Source of the DNA: Marinitoga sp. 38H-ov
GTDB lineage: Bacteria > Thermotogota > Thermotogae > Petrotogales > Petrotogaceae
Assembly: GCF_011057715.1 (NCBI RefSeq)
Contig: NZ_LNGH01000028.1
Coordinates: forward strand, 1-50,760
Direction: 5' to 3'
Length of the DNA: 50,760 nucleotides
Below, one piece after another: positions 10,285-24,451 of the stretch. Both the position numbers and the translations under genes were made by a program. Under the pieces are notes generated by a model. The model had not been told where the DNA came from, ran no database searches, and saw only the letters and a list, made by a program, of their open reading frames with translations. Numbering within the stretch: the first letter of the stretch is position 1; every line of letters starts with the position of its first letter.

Positions 10285-11090
10285 TTGAAAATATTTATTA
10301 AATATTTATATGATTCATTAACTTTATTAAATATTTCATTTTTAATTGAATTTATGTCAATTATTTTTAAATTAGTTGCTTCGGTTTTCAATACCATTAA
10401 AACAGGTTTTTTTATATTCATATCTGGTATTTTATATGAATTATATAGAATATTATATTTGTTTATAATATAGTTTTTCGCTAATTTTCCAATTTCTATA
10501 GCTAAACTTGTATTATTTATTCCATCTGGAATGTCAAAAACTAAGTGTACCTGATTCAGAGAGTAATAAAAAAATACATTAGGTAAGTACCATCTATTAT
10601 ATGAATTTAAGATAAATTCTAATAAATTTGTATCAATGTTTTTATATAGAGATATATATTTTAAACCTTTTAGTTTTTCTGATAAAAAAAATTTTTTTAT
10701 TAAAGCATCATTTCCTGAAACATAATAACTTGGTATAATAAATGGAGACTGAAATATAGATAATGTATTTTTTATAGAAATATTTTTATTATATTTTATA
10801 GATAAATTATGATAAATATTATTAATTTCATTAATCTCCTTATTATCTTCTATATTTTTTGAATATAATGAGTTCATATATTTAGATGGTTTTTCTGGCA
10901 TTAACGAGATAAAACCTCTACCTTCAAAATCAAAAAAAATATTCAAACTTGGAAATTTATTATTAATATCATATACTGACAATCCAACTAAATGATCATA
11001 TTCATCTGCCAATAGATTCTTTTTGTCTTTAAAAAATTCTAAAGATATTTTTTTTAATTCATTGAGTGAATTTAAATTTATGTCAATCAA
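10281..11090 (-). CDS. Conserved-looking cytosolic protein, unknown
   Basis: Not recognised. About 269 residues, no signal peptide and no transmembrane helix. It begins with an acidic Leu-rich stretch, ends with a basic helix, and has several aromatic-rich strand-like segments in the middle (for example NRWYLPNVFFYYS). The frame extends to GTG 11099, but the Shine-Dalgarno GAGAGG touches that codon. TTG at 11090 stands eight bases downstream of it and is the better start. It forms a pair with the upstream membrane gene, which stops six bases away. Co-transcription suggests a joint role, but I cannot name it. Confidence 0.65.
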   Translation of the reverse strand: MIDINLNSLNELKKISLEFFKDKKNLLADEYDHLVGLSVYDINNKFPSLNIFFDFEGRGFISLMPEKPSKYMNSLYSKNIEDNKEINEINNIYHNLSIKYNKNISIKNTLSIFQSPFIIPSYYVSGNDALIKKFFLSEKLKGLKYISLYKNIDTNLLEFILNSYNRWYLPNVFFYYSLNQVHLVFDIPDGINNTSLAIEIGKLAKNYIINKYNILYNSYKIPDMNIKKPVLMVLKTEATNLKIIDINSIKNEIFNKVNESYKYLINIFK

Positions 11091-11095
11091 AAGAA

Positions 11096-11551
11096 TCACC
11101 TCTCAATAAATATTGTGTTTATCAAATTCAAAAAATCAGTATATAATATTTCTTTTTCATTAGCGGTATATTTAATAGGTTGTATTATTTTGGTTTTATA
11201 AGTTTTTTTAGCGTCAAAAATTATTTTAAAATTTGAATATTCACCAAAATAAAATGCATTACCTTCAAATACTACATAAATATTTTTTTGTTTTTTCATT
11301 ATATACCATTTTGGATTTTCAAAAAAAAGATTAAAATATGGTCCTATTTTTTTATTTGGGAATCCATAAAAAGAACTGTTTTTGACAATATTTATATACT
11401 CTTCATCACTTAGATTTATATCAAATAAATCTTTAAAAACAAAATTATATAAAAATAAAGCGGTTATGATGAAAGTAAATAAAGATGAAATTATAATTAT
11501 TAAAATATATTTTAATTGAATTTTATCTTTAATAACATCACCCCCAATCAT
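11096..11551 (-). CDS. Small single-pass membrane protein, unknown
   Basis: Not recognised. Up to 151 residues: a short basic N-terminus, one transmembrane helix (about 15-37, IIIISSLFTFIITALFLY), then about 110 residues outside. The start is uncertain. ATG 11551 has only a poor Shine-Dalgarno. A good GGGGGTG lies inside the frame and faces only an in-frame ATT five bases further on, which would shorten the protein by six residues. It is divergent from valS and followed by the cytosolic gene at 10281. Confidence 0.6.
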   Translation of the reverse strand: MIGGDVIKDKIQLKYILIIIISSLFTFIITALFLYNFVFKDLFDINLSDEEYINIVKNSSFYGFPNKKIGPYFNLFFENPKWYIMKKQKNIYVVFEGNAFYFGEYSNFKIIFDAKKTYKTKIIQPIKYTANEKEILYTDFLNLINTIFIER

Positions 11552-11580
11552 ATTTTTCTATAAATTTATCAAAAAATCCC

Positions 11581-11609
11581 TTGAATTATTAACATCATTA
11601 AAGTATAAT
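11581..11609 (+). promoter_or_regulatory. Promoter for valS operon
   Basis: TTGAAT (11581-11586), 17-nt spacer, TATAAT (11604-11609), about 35 nt before the valS start. No T-box or other tRNA-sensing leader fits in the short space, so synthetase control by T-box is unlikely. Confidence 0.8.
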
Positions 11610-11643
11610 AGTATTAAAATATAAAATTCAGGAGGTAATATAA

Positions 11644-14262
11644 ATGGATATTGGGAAAAGATATACTCCGAATGAAATTGAAACAAAATGGTATAAAATC
11701 TGGCTTGAAAATGGAAAATTCGAAGCTAAAGGGGAAGGTAACGGTAAATTTTCTATGGTTATTCCTCCTCCAAATATAACAGGAAAAATACACATGGGAC
11801 ATGCATTAAATATATCGTTGCAAGATATAATTACTCGTTTTAACAGAATGCAAGGTAAAGATACATTATGGTTACCTGGGGAAGATCATGCAGGGATTGC
11901 GACTCAACATGTTGTTGAAAAGTTCTTAATGAAAAGTGAAGGTAAAAGAAAAGAAGAATATGGTAGAGAAGAGTTTATTAAAAGAGTGTGGGAATGGGCA
12001 AATGAGTATAGAGAACATATTAAAAAACAAATAATGGCAATAGGAGCCTCTGTAGATTGGTCAAGAGAGAGGTTTACTTTAGATGATGGTTTGAATAAAG
12101 CTGTAAGAAAGGTTTTTGTTGAATTGTATAATGAAGGCTTAATATATAAAGGAAAATATATTGTAAACTGGTGTCCAAGTTGTGGAACAGTTCTTTCGGA
12201 TGAAGAAGTAGAACATAAAGATGAACACGGTGCATTTTATCATATAAAATATCCTATAAAAGGTGAAGATGACTATATTATTATAGCTACAACTAGACCA
12301 GAAACAATGCTTGGAGATACTGCAATAGCTGTTCATCCATCAGATGAAAGATATAGTAATTATGTTGGTAAAGTAGCAATTTTACCATTAGTTGGAAGAG
12401 AAATCCCTATAATTGCAGATAAATATGTAGATCCTTCTTTTGGAACAGGAGCATTAAAAGTTACACCAGCACATGATCCGAATGATTATTTAATGGGACA
12501 AAGACATAATTTAGATACAGTGCAAATAATGGATGAATTTGCTAGAATAAATGAAAATGGTGGTAAATATGTTGGTTTGGATAGGAAAGAAGCTAGAAAG
12601 GCAGTAATAGAGGATTTAGAAAAAGAAGGATATTTAATAAAAATAGAAGAAATGACACATTCTGTTGGACATTGTTATAGATGTGATACTGTAGTTGAAC
12701 CATTTTTGCTCGATCAATGGTTTGTAAAAATGAAACCACTGGCTGAAAAAGCAATAGATGCAGTAGAGAAGTCCGATGTTAAATTTTATCCTGGAAGATG
12801 GAAAAAAGTATATTTAAATTGGATGAATGAAATAAGAGATTGGTGTATATCAAGACAGTTGTGGTGGGGACATAGAATACCAGTATGGTATTGTGATGAT
12901 TGTGGTCATATTAATGTTTCCGAAGAGGATATATATGAATGTAAGAAATGTGGTTCAAAAAATATAAAACAAGATGAAGATGTTTTAGATACATGGTTTA
13001 GTTCTGCGTTATGGCCGTTTTCTACTTTAGGATGGCCAGAAAAAACTGATGATTTAAAAAAATATTATCCAACGGATTTATTAGTTACTGGATTTGATAT
13101 TATATTCTTCTGGGTTGCAAGAATGATTGTAATGGGCGAAAAGTTTATGAATGATAAACCATTCTCTGATGTATATATACATCAATTAGTTAGAGACAAA
13201 CAAGGAAGAAAAATGTCTAAATCTCTTGGTAATGGAATTGATCCTTTAGAAATTATAGAAAAATTTGGTGCTGATCCAATGAGATTTACATTAGCAATAT
13301 TAGCAGCTCAAGGAAGAGATATTAAATTGGATCCACAAGCGTTTGATTCATATTCTAAATTTGCAAATAAAATATGGAATGCTACAAGATTTGTATTATT
13401 AAATATGGATGATTTTAAAAAGATAGAATTAAATCCTGATATGCTTGAATTAGAAGATAAATGGATGTTATCAAGGTTAAACAAAACAATAAAAATAGTT
13501 ACAGAATCTTTATTAGGATATGAATTTAATATAGCAGCAAGAGAATTATACGATTTCTTCTGGAATGAATATTGTGATTGGTATATAGAATCAGTAAAGA
13601 ATAGATTAAAATCTGAAAATAAAATAATTGCCCAAAATGTTTTAGTTAGGGTTTTAGATTCTTCTTTAAGATTATTACATCCATTTATGCCTTTCTTAAC
13701 AGAAGAATTATGGCAAAATATACCTAGAATAACAGAAGAAGAATATTTAATTACTGCAAAATGGCCTGAATATATTGAAGAATATAATTTTGAAAAAGAA
13801 GAATCAGAATTTGAAAAAATAAAAGATTTTATTAGAGGTATAAGGAATGTAAAAGCAGAAGTTAACTTGCCACAAATTACAAAAATAGAAATATCTTTTA
13901 AAGCATTAGAGAATTATGAATGGATAATAGATAATGAAGATTTAATAAAAGAGTTAGCTTTTGTAAATAAAATTGAAAAAGTAACAGAAAAGCCAGCAAA
14001 ATCTGCAACATCTTATGTTGATGATAATATTGAATCATATGTTAAATTAGGTGAATTAATTGATGTTGAATCTGAGAAAGAAAGATTAAATAAAAAGAAA
14101 GAAAAATTAGAAAAAGAGTTTGCAAAATACGATAAAAAACTTAATAATAACAAATTTTTAGAAAATGCTCCAGAAGATGTTATTGAAGAAGTAAAAGAAA
14201 ATCATTTATTAATAAAAAATCAATTAGAAAAATTAATGAAATTAATAGAGGAGTTAGAATAA
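11644..14262 (+). CDS. valS: Valyl-tRNA synthetase
   Basis: Charges tRNA-Val; class I synthetase of 872 residues. The HIGH motif is HMGH (50-53, within PPPNITGKIHMGH) and the KMSKS motif is at 523-527. Zinc-knuckle cysteines appear at 177/180 (CPSCG) and near 417-437 (CDDCG ... CKKCG). The editing domain includes TTRPETMLGDTAIAVHP and GTGALKVTPAHDPNDY. The C-terminal ValS coiled coil (rich in Lys/Glu, about 815-872) is intact. AGGAGG precedes the ATG. First gene of a run with folC and ruvA; folC starts one base after the stop. Confidence 0.97.
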   Translation: MDIGKRYTPNEIETKWYKIWLENGKFEAKGEGNGKFSMVIPPPNITGKIHMGHALNISLQDIITRFNRMQGKDTLWLPGEDHAGIATQHVVEKFLMKSEGKRKEEYGREEFIKRVWEWANEYREHIKKQIMAIGASVDWSRERFTLDDGLNKAVRKVFVELYNEGLIYKGKYIVNWCPSCGTVLSDEEVEHKDEHGAFYHIKYPIKGEDDYIIIATTRPETMLGDTAIAVHPSDERYSNYVGKVAILPLVGREIPIIADKYVDPSFGTGALKVTPAHDPNDYLMGQRHNLDTVQIMDEFARINENGGKYVGLDRKEARKAVIEDLEKEGYLIKIEEMTHSVGHCYRCDTVVEPFLLDQWFVKMKPLAEKAIDAVEKSDVKFYPGRWKKVYLNWMNEIRDWCISRQLWWGHRIPVWYCDDCGHINVSEEDIYECKKCGSKNIKQDEDVLDTWFSSALWPFSTLGWPEKTDDLKKYYPTDLLVTGFDIIFFWVARMIVMGEKFMNDKPFSDVYIHQLVRDKQGRKMSKSLGNGIDPLEIIEKFGADPMRFTLAILAAQGRDIKLDPQAFDSYSKFANKIWNATRFVLLNMDDFKKIELNPDMLELEDKWMLSRLNKTIKIVTESLLGYEFNIAARELYDFFWNEYCDWYIESVKNRLKSENKIIAQNVLVRVLDSSLRLLHPFMPFLTEELWQNIPRITEEEYLITAKWPEYIEEYNFEKEESEFEKIKDFIRGIRNVKAEVNLPQITKIEISFKALENYEWIIDNEDLIKELAFVNKIEKVTEKPAKSATSYVDDNIESYVKLGELIDVESEKERLNKKKEKLEKEFAKYDKKLNNNKFLENAPEDVIEEVKENHLLIKNQLEKLMKLIEELE

Positions 14263-19150: not shown

Positions 19151-19726
19151 ATGAAATTAATATTTGGATTAGGAAATCCTGGCCCACGTTATGTTTTTAC
19201 TAAACATAACGTGGGGTTTTTGGTTGTTGATAGATATTATGAAATTAATAAAAATAATTTAAAAAAAATAAGCAGAAAAACTTTTGAAGGATATTTTAAT
19301 GATAATATAATGCTTATTAAGCCTTTAACTTATATGAATTTAAGCGGAAAGGTATTGTATGAATTAAAAAATAAATTCAGAAATCCTGAAGATATAATAG
19401 TAATATATGATGATGTAACCTTAGATATTGGAAAAATTAGAATAAGGCCAAATGGTTCTGCAGGCGGTCATAATGGAATGAAATCAATTATATCTGTTCT
19501 CAAAAGCACAGATTTTCCTAGAATTAGAGTTGGTGTTGGTCCAAAACCTGAATACATGGATTTAGCAGATTATGTTTTAAGTGAATTTTCAAATGAAGAA
19601 TATTATAAAATAAATAAGGTTATTGATAATATTATTCCTGCAATTGATTTAATTGTTGAAGGAAAAATATCTTATGCAATGAATAAGTACAATAACAAAG
19701 ATTTAAGTGGAGATGAAAAAATATGA
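19151..19726 (+). CDS. pth: Peptidyl-tRNA hydrolase
   Basis: Releases tRNA from prematurely dropped peptidyl-tRNA. 191 residues. FGLGNPGPRYVFTKHNVGF holds Asn9 and catalytic His19. YDDVTLDIGKIRIRPNGSAGGHNG carries the conserved Asp and the substrate-binding loop. It starts four bases after rplY. Its last codons overlap the next gene by four bases (ATGA), showing coupling. Confidence 0.95.
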   Translation: MKLIFGLGNPGPRYVFTKHNVGFLVVDRYYEINKNNLKKISRKTFEGYFNDNIMLIKPLTYMNLSGKVLYELKNKFRNPEDIIVIYDDVTLDIGKIRIRPNGSAGGHNGMKSIISVLKSTDFPRIRVGVGPKPEYMDLADYVLSEFSNEEYYKINKVIDNIIPAIDLIVEGKISYAMNKYNNKDLSGDEKI

Positions 19727-20154
19727 AGTGTCAGCTTTGTGGAAAAAAAGAAGCTGAATACATTCAAAAATTTGATAATGACGGCATAGAAACAACTATA
19801 GCATATTGCTATAAATGTGTTAAAGAAATAACTAATTTTCATACTACATATATAAATAAAAAACTTTTGAATTTATATTCAACCAATATATTTTATAGAA
19901 ATAGCTTTTCAATAAAAGAAGAAAATATTGAATTGAAAAGTATTAAGAGTCGTGTTTTTATTGAATTACCAGTACAAGTAAAAAGATTTTTGTTTGTAGA
20001 AGATGAAAATTCAAAATTAAGAGATGCTCAAACTATTATAAAAAGAGGATTAAAATTTTGGGAAAATGAATATGAAAAAGCTAAAAAAGAATTTGATGAA
20101 AAAAAAATGAAAGTTATTGAGGATATTATTAATAGAATAAAAAAGCTAATGTAA
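19723..20154 (+). CDS. Small zinc-knuckle protein, McsA/UvrB-motif-like
   Basis: 143 residues with an N-terminal treble-cleft-type knuckle (CQLCGKKEAEY near 3-13 and YCYKCVKEI near 29-37), a middle region without motifs, and a C-terminal Lys/Glu helix pair (FWENEYEKAKKEFDEKKM) resembling a UVR-type motif. This layout recalls McsA-type activators of protein-arginine kinases, but there is no mcsB beside it. The role is therefore open. It is coupled to pth by a 4-nt overlap and closes the operon before a strong terminator. Confidence 0.7.
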   Translation: MKCQLCGKKEAEYIQKFDNDGIETTIAYCYKCVKEITNFHTTYINKKLLNLYSTNIFYRNSFSIKEENIELKSIKSRVFIELPVQVKRFLFVEDENSKLRDAQTIIKRGLKFWENEYEKAKKEFDEKKMKVIEDIINRIKKLM

Positions 20155-20180
20155 CCGGCAAAATTTGCCGGTATTTTTAT
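20154..20180 (+). terminator. Terminator after pth operon
   Basis: ACCGGCAAAATTTGCCGGT (20154-20172) forms a near-perfect stem, followed by ATTTTTATTT. Ends the glmU-to-zinc-knuckle run. Confidence 0.92.
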
Positions 20181-20212
20181 TTAAAAGTGTTTTTAAATAT
20201 GTTATAATAATT

Positions 20213-20242: not shown

Positions 20243-22225
20243 ATGCAGTTATTAAATCTAAGTGGTATTATTTTTGGTTTAAGTGGTATTATTTTTACAG
20301 TTTTTCTAACTTTTAAGGTTTTAGAAAATTCTCCAGGAAATGAGAAAATGCAGAAAATTTCTAAAGCAATTCAAGAAGGAGCAAAAGCTTTTTTAATTTC
20401 AGAGTATAAGATATTATATATTATAGTAATTATTATTTTTATATTATTAGGGTTAATTAATGGATGGAATATGTCATTATCATTTTTACTCGGTGCAACT
20501 CTATCCGTAGCATCAGGCTTTTTCGGAATGGGTATTGCAACAAAAGCAAATACTAGAACAGCACAAGGAGCAATTGAATCTTTAAATAAGGGATTAAAAA
20601 TAGCTTTTAATGGTGGTGCTGTTATGGGAATGACAGTAGCATCATTGGGACTTTTTGGTCTAGGTTTAGTATATTATTTAACTAATGGAGATACTATATC
20701 AATGAGTGGTTATGCTATGGGAGCATCTTTAGTTGCACTTTTTGCAAGAGTTGGTGGAGGTATTTTCACTAAAGCAGCTGATGTTGGAGCTGATTTAGTT
20801 GGGAAAACTGAAGCTGGTATTCCTGAAGATGATCCAAGAAATCCAGCTGTAATAGCAGATAATGTTGGTGATAATGTTGGCGATGTTGCTGGTATGGGAG
20901 CTGATTTATATGAATCATTTGTTGGTTCTATTTTTTCTGCATCGGCGTTAGGAATAATTATGTATAGTGAAAAAGGTGCAATTTTCCCATTTCTAGTTGC
21001 TTCTATTGGAATTTTAGCCGCAATGTTAGGTATTATTATATTTAATTATTATTTAAAAACTAAAGATAACGTAGATCCATCTAAAGCTTTACATTTTGGA
21101 ACTTATATAGCAAATGGTTTAACTTTATTAGGAGTACTTATGATATCCTTATTCTTTTTAAGGACAATAAAACCATTTATTGTAATCTTTTTAGGGATGA
21201 TTGTTGGTATGATTATAGGTAATATAACTGAATATTATACAGCCAAAAATCCAATAAAACATTTAGCTCATAGTGCAATTAGTGGAGCTGCTCCGTTATT
21301 AATAAATGGTATGGCAATTGGTATGGAATCAACTGCAATACCAGTTATATTGATCTCTTTTGCTACCATTATATCTTATTATTTCTTAGGTTTATTTGGA
21401 ATCGCGTTGGCAGGAGTAGGGATGTTAGCAACATTGGGAATTACATTAGCAATAGATGCATACGGTCCAATTGCGGATAATTCAGGTGGGATAGCTCAAA
21501 TGGCTGATCTAGAATCATTTGTTAGAGAAAGAACAGATCAATTAGATGCTGTAGGTAATACAACAGCAGCTATAGGAAAAGGCTTTGCAATAGGATCAGC
21601 AGCATTAACAGCTTTGGCTCTTTTTGCATCATATACGCAGGTGACAAATTTATCTATTATAGATTTGTCTAAATCAAATGTGTTTATTGGAGCTTTAATT
21701 GGAGGAATGCTACCATTTTTATTTTCTTCTATGGCAATGAAAGCTGTTGGAGATGCTGCAGAAATAATGGTTCAGGAGGTTAGAAGACAATTTAAAGAAA
21801 TTGTAGGTTTAATGGAGGGGAAAGCAGAACCTGATTATAAAAAGTGTGTTTCTATTGCAACAAAAGGAGCATTAAAAAAGATGGTATTGCCATCGTTATT
21901 AGCAGTTTTTATGCCTATAATAATGTATATAGTATTGGGAAAAGAATCAGTCGCTGGAATGCTGGTTGGAACTACAGTTTCTGGTGTAATGTTAGCTATA
22001 TTTATGGCGAATGCAGGTGGTGCTTGGGATAATGCGAAAAAATATATAGAAGAAGGAAATTTTGGCGGTAAAGGTACGTTTGCTCATAAAGCTGCGGTTA
22101 TAGGAGATACAGTAGGTGATCCTTTTAAAGATACCGCTGGCCCGGCAATAAATATATTGATTAAATTAATGTCTATTATTTCTATTGTTGTAATACCTAT
22201 ATTAATAAAAATATTTGAAAATTAA
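20243..22225 (+). CDS. hppA: Membrane-bound ion-pumping pyrophosphatase, K+-dependent
   Basis: Couples PPi hydrolysis to Na+ or H+ export. 660 residues, about 16 membrane segments. The pyrophosphate site is clear: [13 protein letters not shown] followed by [19 protein letters not shown] and [10 protein letters not shown] (about 177-226). C-terminal acidic motifs include [15 protein letters not shown]. The cation-specifying segment reads [10 protein letters not shown]. Alanine there (Lys in the K+-independent class) marks the K+-dependent type. The Thermotoga maritima relative pumps Na+, so a Na+ pump is likely but not proven. GGGGAGGA precedes the ATG. The next gene is a phosphofructokinase-like protein, an attractive link to PPi metabolism. 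Confidence 0.95.
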
Positions 22226-22245
22226 TTTTTACAAGGGGGTACATT

Positions 22246-23235
22246 ATGAAAAGAATAGCTTTATTAAATGTTGGTGGAGATTGTCCTGGATTAAATAGTG
22301 CAATAAGGGCATTTGTTAGAAAATCAGCGCTAGAAGATATTGAAGTTTTAGGTGTTTATGATGGTTTTAAAGGATTGTTAGAAGATAGAGTTTTTGTAAT
22401 GACAAAAGAGCATGTATCTGGTATTTTAGAAAGAGGTGGAACAATTTTAGGATCATCTAAATATGATCCAACAGAAAATATAGAAGATATGAATAAATTG
22501 AAGGAAAATTTTAAAAAATATCAAATTACTGCTTTTGTAATTATGAGTGGTCATACTGGTACGGGAATAGCATTAAAGTTATCTGATGAAGGAATGCCTT
22601 CAATTGTAATTCCCGCAACGATTGATAATGATTTACCTTGGACAGATTTTAGTATAGGTTTTTTTACAGCTTTAGAAACAGTTACAAAAACATTAGATTC
22701 CTTACATTCCACAGCAAGCGCAGGACATAGGGTTATTGTTGTTGAAGTTGGAGGAGATGAAGCAGGATGGTTAGCGACTTTAGGTGGGTTAACAGGAGGA
22801 GCTGATTATATTATTATTCCTGAAATAGAATTTAATCCAGATAATTTAATTAATAATATCAAAAAAAGATATGAGGAAGGTAAAAAGTTTTCTATTGTAG
22901 TTGTACAAGAAAAATGTAATTTATCGAAATATATATCAACAGAAGGAACACCTTCGGAGATAGTTTCTAAAATAATTAAAGAAAATATTCAAGGTGTAGA
23001 ATGTAGAAACGTTAATTTAGGTTATATGCAAAGAGGTGGAACCCCTGTATCATTTGATAGACTTATAGCAACTATGTTTTCAAATAAAGCTATAGAATAT
23101 ATTAAAAAAGGAAAAGTAAATATAGCATTAGCATTAAAAGGATTTGAAATATATGATGTGCCTTTTTCTCAAGAGTTATTAAAAAATAAAGAAATAGATT
23201 ATAAAATATATGAAATGGCAAAAACCTTTTTCTAA
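22246..23235 (+). CDS. Phosphofructokinase-like protein with altered active site
   Basis: 329 residues of the PfkA fold, running GGDCPGLNSAIR (10-21), SGHTGT (101-106), PATIDND (123-129), HR (161-162), VEVGGD (166-171), QE222 and LGYMQRGG (258-265). Against bacterial PFK numbering, the base Asp127, Asp129, Arg162 and Glu222 are kept. Asp103 (Mg-ATP) is His, Gly104 is Thr, Gly124 is Ala, Met169 is Gly, Arg171 is Asp, and the His of LGH is Tyr. ATP enzymes have Gly104/Gly124 and PPi enzymes Asp104/Lys124; this matches neither. It may use another substrate or act as a regulator. AAGGGGG precedes the ATG, 20 nt after hppA. Confidence 0.85.
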   Translation: MKRIALLNVGGDCPGLNSAIRAFVRKSALEDIEVLGVYDGFKGLLEDRVFVMTKEHVSGILERGGTILGSSKYDPTENIEDMNKLKENFKKYQITAFVIMSGHTGTGIALKLSDEGMPSIVIPATIDNDLPWTDFSIGFFTALETVTKTLDSLHSTASAGHRVIVVEVGGDEAGWLATLGGLTGGADYIIIPEIEFNPDNLINNIKKRYEEGKKFSIVVVQEKCNLSKYISTEGTPSEIVSKIIKENIQGVECRNVNLGYMQRGGTPVSFDRLIATMFSNKAIEYIKKGKVNIALALKGFEIYDVPFSQELLKNKEIDYKIYEMAKTFF

Positions 23236-23242
23236 TGAATAT

Positions 23243-23262
23243 CAGCTCCTATTTAGGAGCTG
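23243..23262. repeat. Palindromic repeat, copy 1
   Basis: CAGCTCCTATTTAGGAGCTG, a perfect hairpin after the PFK-like gene. Its first 17 bases recur at 23686-23702, on the other side of the transposase relic. Confidence 0.75.
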
Positions 23263-23276
23263 CGGATTGCAGACAA

Positions 23277-23308
23277 ATCCCATCCAGTTTTGGATGGGAT
23301 ATTTTTAT
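23277..23308 (+). terminator. Terminator after hppA and PFK-like gene
   Basis: ATCCCATCC (23277-23285) pairs with GGATGGGAT (23292-23300) with a 6-nt loop, followed by ATTTTTATT. Good intrinsic terminator for the plus strand. Confidence 0.88.
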
Positions 23309-23710: not shown

Positions 23711-24169
23711 TTATTTTTCAAAAATACCTCTTTTTTCTAAGAAAATTAATAATGGTAATCCTAAAACATAACAAGCTATTAATTCACCTATTCCAATCCA
23801 AAAAACAGTAGGCCAATATGGAACATTTGCTAATGGTGCAACATATGCAGAAACGCCAAAAGCATTTACAATTACTGGTGGCAAAGGAGCTAAAAATTTA
23901 TTAGGCATTTTATAAGTTAAAAATGCTGCTAATAAAGTTAAAGCGCTACCTAAAAAAATATCAATAGCTCCAAAACCTCCAAAGATATTTGCTAGCATTG
24001 CACCAACATACAAAGCTGGAATGAAAATAGGATTAAAAAAAGGTAATACTGTCAATGCTTCAGAAACTCTTACTTGTAGTGGTCCATAGCTAATAGGAGC
24101 TAAAACCACAGTTAATGCAACATATAATGCTGCAACCACACCTGCCAATACTAAGTTTTTTGTTTTCAA
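23711..24169 (-). CDS. queT: QueT-type ECF transporter S component (queuosine precursor uptake)
   Basis: Substrate-binding membrane subunit for preQ0/preQ1-type queuosine precursors, 152 residues with about five or six hydrophobic helices. Family marks: APISYGPLQVRVSEALTVLPFF near the N-terminus, followed by ALYVGAMLANIFGG. A preQ1-I aptamer directly upstream strongly supports the substrate. The frame reaches GTG 24178, but that codon overlaps the Shine-Dalgarno AAGGAGG; TTG at 24169, eight bases downstream, is the proper start. It should work with the EcfA1/A2 ATPases at 7.1-8.7 kb and an EcfT outside the window. Confidence 0.9.
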   Translation of the reverse strand: MKTKNLVLAGVVAALYVALTVVLAPISYGPLQVRVSEALTVLPFFNPIFIPALYVGAMLANIFGGFGAIDIFLGSALTLLAAFLTYKMPNKFLAPLPPVIVNAFGVSAYVAPLANVPYWPTVFWIGIGELIACYVLGLPLLIFLEKRGIFEK

Positions 24170-24177
24170 AAAAAACA

Positions 24178-24213
24178 CCTCCTTGTTTTGTTAAGGCGGG
24201 TGCTGCGACCGCC
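24178..24213 (-). promoter_or_regulatory. preQ1-I riboswitch (translation-type)
   Basis: On the minus strand GGCGG (24213-24209) pairs with CCGCC around the loop TCGCAGCA, followed by TTAACAAAACAAGG (ending at 24181). This matches the class I preQ1 aptamer of Thermoanaerobacter tengcongensis nearly base for base in the loop and the A-rich tail. The AAGG that pairs in the pseudoknot is the start of the Shine-Dalgarno AAGGAGG of queT, so ligand binding should hide it and block translation. A TATAAT lies about 10 nt upstream of the aptamer. Confidence 0.92.
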
Positions 24214-24259
24214 GGACTCAATTATATAAAATATTTATTGTTTTTAAAATAAAATATTG

Positions 24260-24451
24260 TTAAAATAAAGATGTTATAAAAAATAATATTATACCTATTA
24301 TAAAATATATAATGGCTTTTTTATCGCTTTTTTTAATTTTATCTTCATCTTTCATATATCCTTTTCTTGTTTCTTTAACAGTTGAATTAAATAAATAAAT
24401 TCCATTTAAGATAAAAAATACTCCTGAGAAAAAAAATATATTAGCCAGCAT
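24260..24451 (-). CDS. Small two-helix membrane protein
   Basis: Not recognised. 63 residues: a hydrophobic helix (about 3-22), a charged loop (KETRKGYMKDEDKIKKSDKK), and a second helix (about 47-62). GGAGG eight bases before ATG 24451 supports a real gene. It lies between queT and dnaB, divergent from dnaB. Function unknown. Confidence 0.65.
   Translation of the reverse strand: MLANIFFFSGVFFILNGIYLFNSTVKETRKGYMKDEDKIKKSDKKAIIYFIIGIILFFITSLF

Follow-up and report, generated by a model that had tools for sequence, protein, structure and literature searches.

A phosphofructokinase homologue with a lost phosphoryl-donor site is strictly paired with a K+-type membrane pyrophosphatase in Thermotogota

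The phosphofructokinase (PFK) paralogue encoded next to a membrane pyrophosphatase gene (hppA) in Marinitoga sp. 38H-ov belongs to a family for which we coined the name PFK-X, found in 49 genomes of related, mostly heat-loving bacteria. The phosphoryl-donor site has been lost, the sugar-phosphate site has been kept and the gene forms a fixed pair with one subtype of pump, here named HppA-X; for these reasons PFK-X is likelier to act together with the pump, as its sensor or partner, than to work in glycolysis. Our preferred reading, held with about even confidence, is a pseudo-PFK, dead in its donor site and still binding sugar phosphate, that works for the K+-type pump encoded beside it, whether as sensor, as regulator or as partner.

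The window, i.e., the whole stretch of DNA that was analysed, comprises 50,760 nucleotides, and the features of the locus are collected in Table 1. The reading frame of PFK-X is intact and starts with ATG, as had been claimed in an earlier note made from the sequence, with a Shine-Dalgarno sequence, AAGGGGG, at 22233-22239, 6 nt upstream of the start codon. Its product belongs to the PFK family, matching the Pfam PFK model over all 277 of 277 positions (2.7e-92, 309.5 bits), and the nearest named record was from M. lauensis at 86% identity. The start codon follows the hppA stop by 20 nt. Terminators flank the pair on both sides, the one of the upstream operon forming the left edge, and hppA and PFK-X therefore look like a single transcription unit. 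The promoter-like element upstream of hppA is a weak candidate, since the shuffled region yields equally many such sites. Two neighbours were recorded in passing. Between pth and the hppA unit, at 19723-20154 (+), lies a gene for a protein of 143 aa that has CxxC pairs, looks McsA-like by eye and gave no Pfam match. Its identity falls to 45-62% in most of the other Marinitoga, against more than 73% for the neighbouring genes. At 23711-24260 (-) there is a gene for a QueT queuosine-precursor transporter (Pfam 7.4e-47) with an untranslated leader, in which no Rfam riboswitch was found at gathering score.

Table 1. Coordinates of features in and around the hppA-PFK-X unit of the window.
Feature	Position	Strand	Basis or remark
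Intrinsic terminator of upstream glmU-prs-rplY-pth operon	20154..20172	+	8-bp stem and T tail; -12.2 kcal/mol, z -3.1
Promoter-like TTTAAA-17-TATAAT, TG preceding second hexamer, 5' of hppA	20180..20208	+	Consensus match only
hppA subtype X, 660-aa membrane pyrophosphatase	20243..22225	+	Pfam H_PPase 9.6e-263, 874 bits
PFK-X, 329 aa, phosphoryl-donor site lost, sugar-phosphate site retained	22246..23235	+	Alignment, Pfam, AlphaFold model
Codons for Gly102-His103-Thr104 replacing GGD(G/D), lost Mg/ATP/PPi donor loop	22549..22557	+	Invariant in 20 Petrotogaceae orthologues
Codons for Ala124-Thr125-Ile126-Asp127-Asn128-Asp129, catalytic-base loop retained; 124 neither Gly nor Lys	22615..22632	+	
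Codons for Gly169-Gly170-Asp171 replacing MGR motif	22750..22758	+	Arg171 invariant in all non-X PFKs aligned
Hairpin directly 3' of PFK-X, terminator-like on minus strand	23243..23262	.	-12.7 kcal/mol, z -5.4
Intrinsic terminator ending hppA-PFK-X unit	23277..23300	+	10-bp stem and T-rich tail; -16.5 kcal/mol, z -4.0

Residues are numbered as in E. coli PfkA (PDB numbering), by alignment, and in this alignment all residue calls of the earlier note were correct. Asp127, Asp129, Arg162 and Glu222 are retained in the window protein, while position 103 is His, 104 is Thr, 124 is Ala, 169-171 read Gly-Gly-Asp, and 249 is Tyr. Three further changes in the donor site had been missed, Arg72 to Lys, Ser105 to Gly and Gly108 to Ile, and among the four PFKs of the genome the window protein is alone in having K72, H103, T104, G105, I108 and D171. 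Two of the positions were rejected as diagnostic: Ala124 is also present in the canonical PfkA of the same genome and in that of another Thermotogota genus, and for proven PPi-PFKs (PMC10339645) Tyr249 is nothing unusual. ATP-dependent PFKs are defined by GGDG (Asp103, Gly104) together with Gly108, and PPi-dependent ones by GGDD (Asp104) and PKTIDxD (Lys124) (PMC12203962); ATP-PFK requires Gly104, which leaves space for the alpha-phosphate, and Gly108 is present in all solved ATP-PFKs (PMC12203962, PMC10339645).

The substitutions are not a peculiarity of one strain, as was found by profile search and phylogeny. Among the 38 genomes of the order that were searched, orthologues at 62-91% identity were found in 20 of 21 Petrotogaceae, the window's genome included, and the substitutions were invariant in all 20; the single Petrotogaceae genome without PFK-X has a completeness of 80%. 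When 103 Thermotogota genomes were searched with a profile, a sister group emerged in 29 genomes of two further families, f8 and f9, the full-length members of which scored 366-397 bits (one was partial), with no other PFK above 257 bits. In a tree with 34 sampled members, which were also the ones aligned (20 Petrotogaceae and 14 f8/f9 proteins), PFK-X was monophyletic with support 100/99, and each sublineage had a bootstrap of 100. Strong purifying selection was seen within Marinitoga, within Petrotoga-type genomes and within a third genus, with dN/dS values of 0.03-0.10 for PFK-X, and hppA and PfkA of the same genomes gave similar values. Together with the intact frames these values indicate that PFK-X is functional and not decaying, and a pseudogene was ruled out. 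Loss of donor-site residues in a clade under purifying selection, as seen in the 34 aligned proteins and in dN/dS, is one of the features by which a pseudoenzyme is recognised. No PFK-X was found in viral contigs, and plasmids held only PFKs with less than 60% identity to PFK-X, about 40% or less among the matches listed. The IMG/VR viral contigs do carry host-type pfkA, several copies being 100% identical to E. coli PfkA, and these are probably host flanks.

The claim that the protein fits neither class, ATP or PPi, was thus correct, and it holds across the whole clade of 34 aligned proteins. In place of GGDG, all 20 Petrotogaceae proteins have Gly-His-Thr-Gly with Ile108, and all 14 f8/f9 proteins have Gly-Arg-X with Ala or Ser at 108. 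The Arg72/Arg171 pair, which contacts the donor phosphate in ATP-PFKs, is missing, with Lys72 and Asp171 in Petrotogaceae and Leu72 and Lys, Arg or Ala171 in f8/f9, where Arg171 is retained in 3 of the 14. The GGDD/PKTIDxD signature of PPi-PFKs is equally absent, as position 104 is Thr, Leu, Ile, Asn or His, and 124 is Ala in 34/34. Since 104 must be Gly, and 108 is Gly in solved ATP-PFKs, use of ATP by PFK-X is unlikely judging from these residues, and we are highly confident that it is not a normal ATP-PFK. Summed over the family, the donor losses are R72K/L, D103H/R, G104T/L/I/N/H, S105G/A and R171D/K/A, with G11N in f8/f9, and nearly all of the lost residues are retained in PfkA, mixed-type paralogues and the E. 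coli PFK.

The two sublineages lost the donor site in two different ways. The f8/f9 proteins lose the same positions as Petrotogaceae with other residues in place (N11, L72, R103, L/I/N/H104, G/A105, A124, K/R/A171, S/D222), while in the acceptor site T125, D127, D129, R162 and R252 are present in 34/34 and R243 in 33/34. The consensus sequences of the sublineages agreed at 3/12 donor positions, 9/11 acceptor positions, and 165/310 positions of the whole protein, and PfkA controls agreed at 8/12, 10/11 and 224/310, respectively. In PFK-X the donor residues are thus conserved below the average of the protein, and the acceptor residues above it. The difference between donor and acceptor agreement in PFK-X gave a Fisher p of 0.012, on few positions, and one sugar contact, E222, is lost in f8/f9. 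Had a working donor pocket been newly gained, both sublineages would be expected to have it, and as this was not so, the comparison argues against a gained donor; a pseudoenzyme is favoured because the donor site was lost in two ways while the sugar-phosphate site was kept. The effector site also retains R21, K/R54, S58, G185, D187 and K/R213 in 34/34 PFK-X, of which K/R54 and S58 are absent from Thermotogota PfkAs, and residue 161 is His in 34/34. In bacterial PFK this residue is a Glu, which displaces Arg162 and lowers the affinity for fructose 6-phosphate (F6P) in the inhibited state (PMC12203962). His161 and the retained effector site would thus fit a sensor role.

A canonical pfkA, for which the earlier note had advised a check, was found elsewhere in the genome and also in other PFK-X genomes, and PFK-X is therefore not the only PFK of the cell. 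The window's genome has three other PFKs, namely PfkA (E103, G104, A124, R72, R171, H249), a mixed-type PFK (D103, D104, K124) and a Thermotogales-type PPi-PFK (N103, D104, K124). All three retain Arg72, Arg171 and Ser or Thr at 105, and R72 and R171 are kept by nearly all other PFKs aligned, PPi-type paralogues included. Some other features of PFK genes were noted in passing. Canonical Thermotogota PfkAs have Glu or Asn for the Mg-binding Asp103, and some have Ala124, with the other key residues of the ATP site intact (e.g., G000:C36:18577-19527); Glu/Asn103 was considered as a PFK-X-like trait and rejected, because the other key donor residues are still present. At G024:C7:430815-431761, in the genome that matches M. 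lauensis, the PfkA gene is broken into two frames at one point, probably by an assembly error. An unusual PFK at G035:C1:960047-961075 has D103, G104 and K124 but Asn72, and formed its own long branch in the tree.

A canonical PfkA alongside PFK-X leaves room for another arrangement, in which PFK-X would be a regulatory subunit co-assembling with PfkA of the same cell, and the link to hppA would be only co-regulation. Eukaryotic PFKs are known to have dead regulatory halves or subunits, a donor-loop loss of this kind is seen when the mammalian C-half is aligned, and the interface residues R162 and R243, which complete the F6P site of the neighbour subunit, are retained in PFK-X. However, the distribution of PFK-X tracks HppA-X and not PfkA, and PfkA-type genes occur as well in Thermotogota that lack PFK-X; we consider this arrangement improbable. 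An affinity of PFK-X itself to the mammalian C-half was found not to be real, since single-domain bacterial PFKs scored 215 bits versus 132 for the C-half.

The annotation models gave a divided picture. The window protein scored 329.8 bits with the NCBI subfamily model PRK03202 (cut-off 253), and three relatives scored 297-306 bits, so that NCBI models would label the PFK-X proteins tested 'ATP-dependent 6-phosphofructokinase'. With the PFKA_ATP equivalog TIGR02482 it reached 267 bits against a cut-off of 371 (relatives 234-244 bits), and PFK-X stayed far under every PPi-PFK cut-off, with all PPi equivalog models failing. The naming by PRK03202 would make PFK-X an ordinary ATP-dependent PFK with tolerated substitutions, if not a decaying duplicate. 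Clearing that one cut-off is in its favour, but the equivalog is failed and R72, D103, G104, S105, G108 and R171 are all lost together, while a decaying duplicate is at odds with the low dN/dS (0.03-0.10) and the intact frames. We regard this as extremely unlikely, and the sequence gives the label no support.

The partnership with the pump is strict. Thermotogota carry several hppA genes, and HppA-X was defined by an identity of 57% or more to the HppA of the window, other near-full-length HppA being about 55% identical or less. PFK-X and HppA-X were found in exactly the same 49 of the 103 Thermotogota genomes (the p value of this co-occurrence takes no account of shared ancestry), and PFK-X was absent from families f2, f7, f10 and f11, which lack HppA-X. 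The two genes are adjacent on the same strand, with hppA upstream, in 48/49 genomes, the exception being G035, where they lie far apart. In most f8/f9 genomes the frames overlap or almost touch (-14 to +6 nt). The surroundings of the pair are rearranged between genera, and Petrotogaceae other than Marinitoga share little else with the window; adjacency across rearranged neighbourhoods and three families is a stronger point than co-occurrence. The earlier note had mentioned the PPi-driven pump 20 nt upstream in passing, and this pump turned out to be the strongest clue (49/49 co-occurrence, 48/49 adjacency). In the pump itself all six motifs, of substrate site and ion gate, the catalytic ones included, were intact in every X-type protein checked, and it carries the K+-dependent signature GNTTAA, plus GADLYES (motif check; alignment with subtype Y). 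Another hppA subtype was also seen in the vicinity of a PFK: G000:C22 holds a mixed-type PFK at 1343-2398 and hppA subtype Y at 10421-12589, and in several Marinitoga genomes a D104/K124 PFK lies about 8-9 kb from subtype Y hppA, near but not adjacent. We find it very probable that the function of PFK-X is tied to HppA-X.

Such a tie could also be chemical. PFK-X might be an active, atypical PPi/Pi phosphotransferase with a donor pocket rebuilt without D104/K124 or Asp103-Mg, for instance one which converts fructose 1,6-bisphosphate (FBP) and Pi to F6P and PPi and so feeds the pump, or one with sedoheptulose 7-phosphate (S7P) chemistry. The strict linkage to a PPi-consuming pump is in line with this, as are the retained D127, D129, T125 and R162, and the PPi-PFK-like Tyr249 (PMC10339645). 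Methylococcus and several symbionts co-encode a PPi-PFK with an H+-PPase, and a route from PPi to proton gradient has been proposed (PMC4287430). Asp103 is moreover not universal, since the Thermotogales-type PPi-PFK has Asn103. Against it, D104 and K124 are both missing, R72 and usually R171 are gone though nearly all other aligned PFKs have them, hardly any donor position is the same in the two sublineages, and the D104/K124 pair is already present in two other PFKs of Marinitoga. We judge it rather unlikely, though it is the main rival reading. A kinase whose phosphoryl donor or whose sugar-phosphate acceptor is an unrelated one, and which has no functional link to PPi, would account for the catalytic base and Asp129 in all members, but it leaves the 49/49 partnership with one hppA subtype unexplained, and here too the donor pocket differs between the sublineages; this seems very improbable to us. 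The earlier note had offered two readings. Of these, the regulatory pseudoenzyme is judged here more likely than a kinase that uses a different donor or substrate, because donor loss differs by sublineage and the sugar site is kept.

Structure prediction with AlphaFold gave a model with pLDDT 82 and pTM 0.82 from a nine-PFK alignment; with two sequences the pLDDT was 40, and it rose to 82 when PFKs from public viral contigs were added. The best structural matches were bacterial ATP-PFKs, with 1pfk at Z 31.6 and rmsd 3.4 over 311 residues. Because the alignment was mostly canonical PFK, the model informs on the fold and not on the fine geometry of the pocket. The fold is confidently predicted to be the intact two-Rossmann fold of the PFK superfamily (PF00365 / IPR035966).

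For the pseudo-PFK the following mechanism is proposed. The donor site would be dead towards both ATP and PPi, the PFK-type composite sites would still bind F6P, FBP or a relative, and an effector-like pocket seems to be retained. With little or no phosphoryl transfer, PFK-X would set the activity, assembly or location of HppA-X by the glycolytic state, acting on the pump directly or forming a small assembly with it. We lean towards the absence of any physiologically relevant phosphoryl transfer by PFK-X. Physical binding to HppA-X is a possibility which falls somewhat short of even, and slightly more tentative is the complete scheme, in which a cytosolic sugar-phosphate-sensing pseudo-PFK gates a PPi-driven, K+-dependent pump and couples glycolytic state directly to PPi energy conservation. 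Several points speak against the preferred reading. Asp127 and Asp129 occur in all members and would not be strictly needed by a pure pseudoenzyme, hence residual activity is possible. The altered donor residues are invariant within Petrotogaceae, and may therefore bind something, and being linked to a PPi pump points to PPi chemistry no less than to regulation. We also counted against it the loss of E222 in f8/f9, the few donor and acceptor positions, and the separated genes of G035.

The pair is a testable case of glycolysis wired to PPi-driven ion pumping. It also points to systematic misannotation, as in about 49 genomes a protein without a recognisable ATP site would receive an ATP-PFK label, and this matters for the metabolic models of Thermotogota that hydrogen and oil-field microbiology relies on. 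Degenerate regulatory halves are known in eukaryotes, so that dead PFKs as such are nothing new; a bacterial one that stands alone and is paired with an ion pump seems to be. The superfamily review of 2025 sorts PFKs by ATP or PPi donor, does not contain the words 'pseudo' and 'inactive', and mentions no bacterial pseudo-PFK (PMC12203962). The open-access literature searched contained no description of a Thermotogota pseudo-PFK or of a PFK with hppA, and none of a regulatory partner protein for membrane pyrophosphatase.

Compared with bacterial PfkA (E. coli, Geobacillus stearothermophilus), PFK-X shares fold, length, the TIDND base loop, the residues R162/R243/R252 for the phosphate of F6P and parts of the effector site, but R72, D103, G104, S105, G108 and R171 are replaced, residue 161 is His, and H249 is changed to Tyr. 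In the eukaryotic PFK C-terminal half and the plant PFP alpha subunit the catalytic site has decayed, and the sugar (bis)phosphate site persists in a sensing role. These share with PFK-X the PFK fold and the decayed catalytic site, but they occur either fused to a catalytic PFK or in an assembly with one, whereas PFK-X is a stand-alone, pump-linked bacterial gene, the product of which retains Asp127. With PPi-PFKs (mixed TIGR02483, Thermotogales NF041103) PFK-X has in common the superfamily, a residue 108 bigger than Gly and, as in several of them, Tyr249; unlike them it is without D104, K124, Arg72 and mostly Arg171. Closest in gene arrangement are the Methylococcus-type operons, where a PFK gene is likewise associated with a membrane PPase (adjacent in 48/49 PFK-X genomes), although PFK-X lacks the PPi-type donor residues. 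The Methylococcus capsulatus PFK was shown to be a PPi enzyme, and for such operons it has been proposed that PPi made by the PFK drives the H+-PPase (PMC4287430). Unlike this pair in M. capsulatus and chemosynthetic symbionts (PMC4287430), PFK-X has no recognisable donor site, and its genome has separate PPi-type PFKs.
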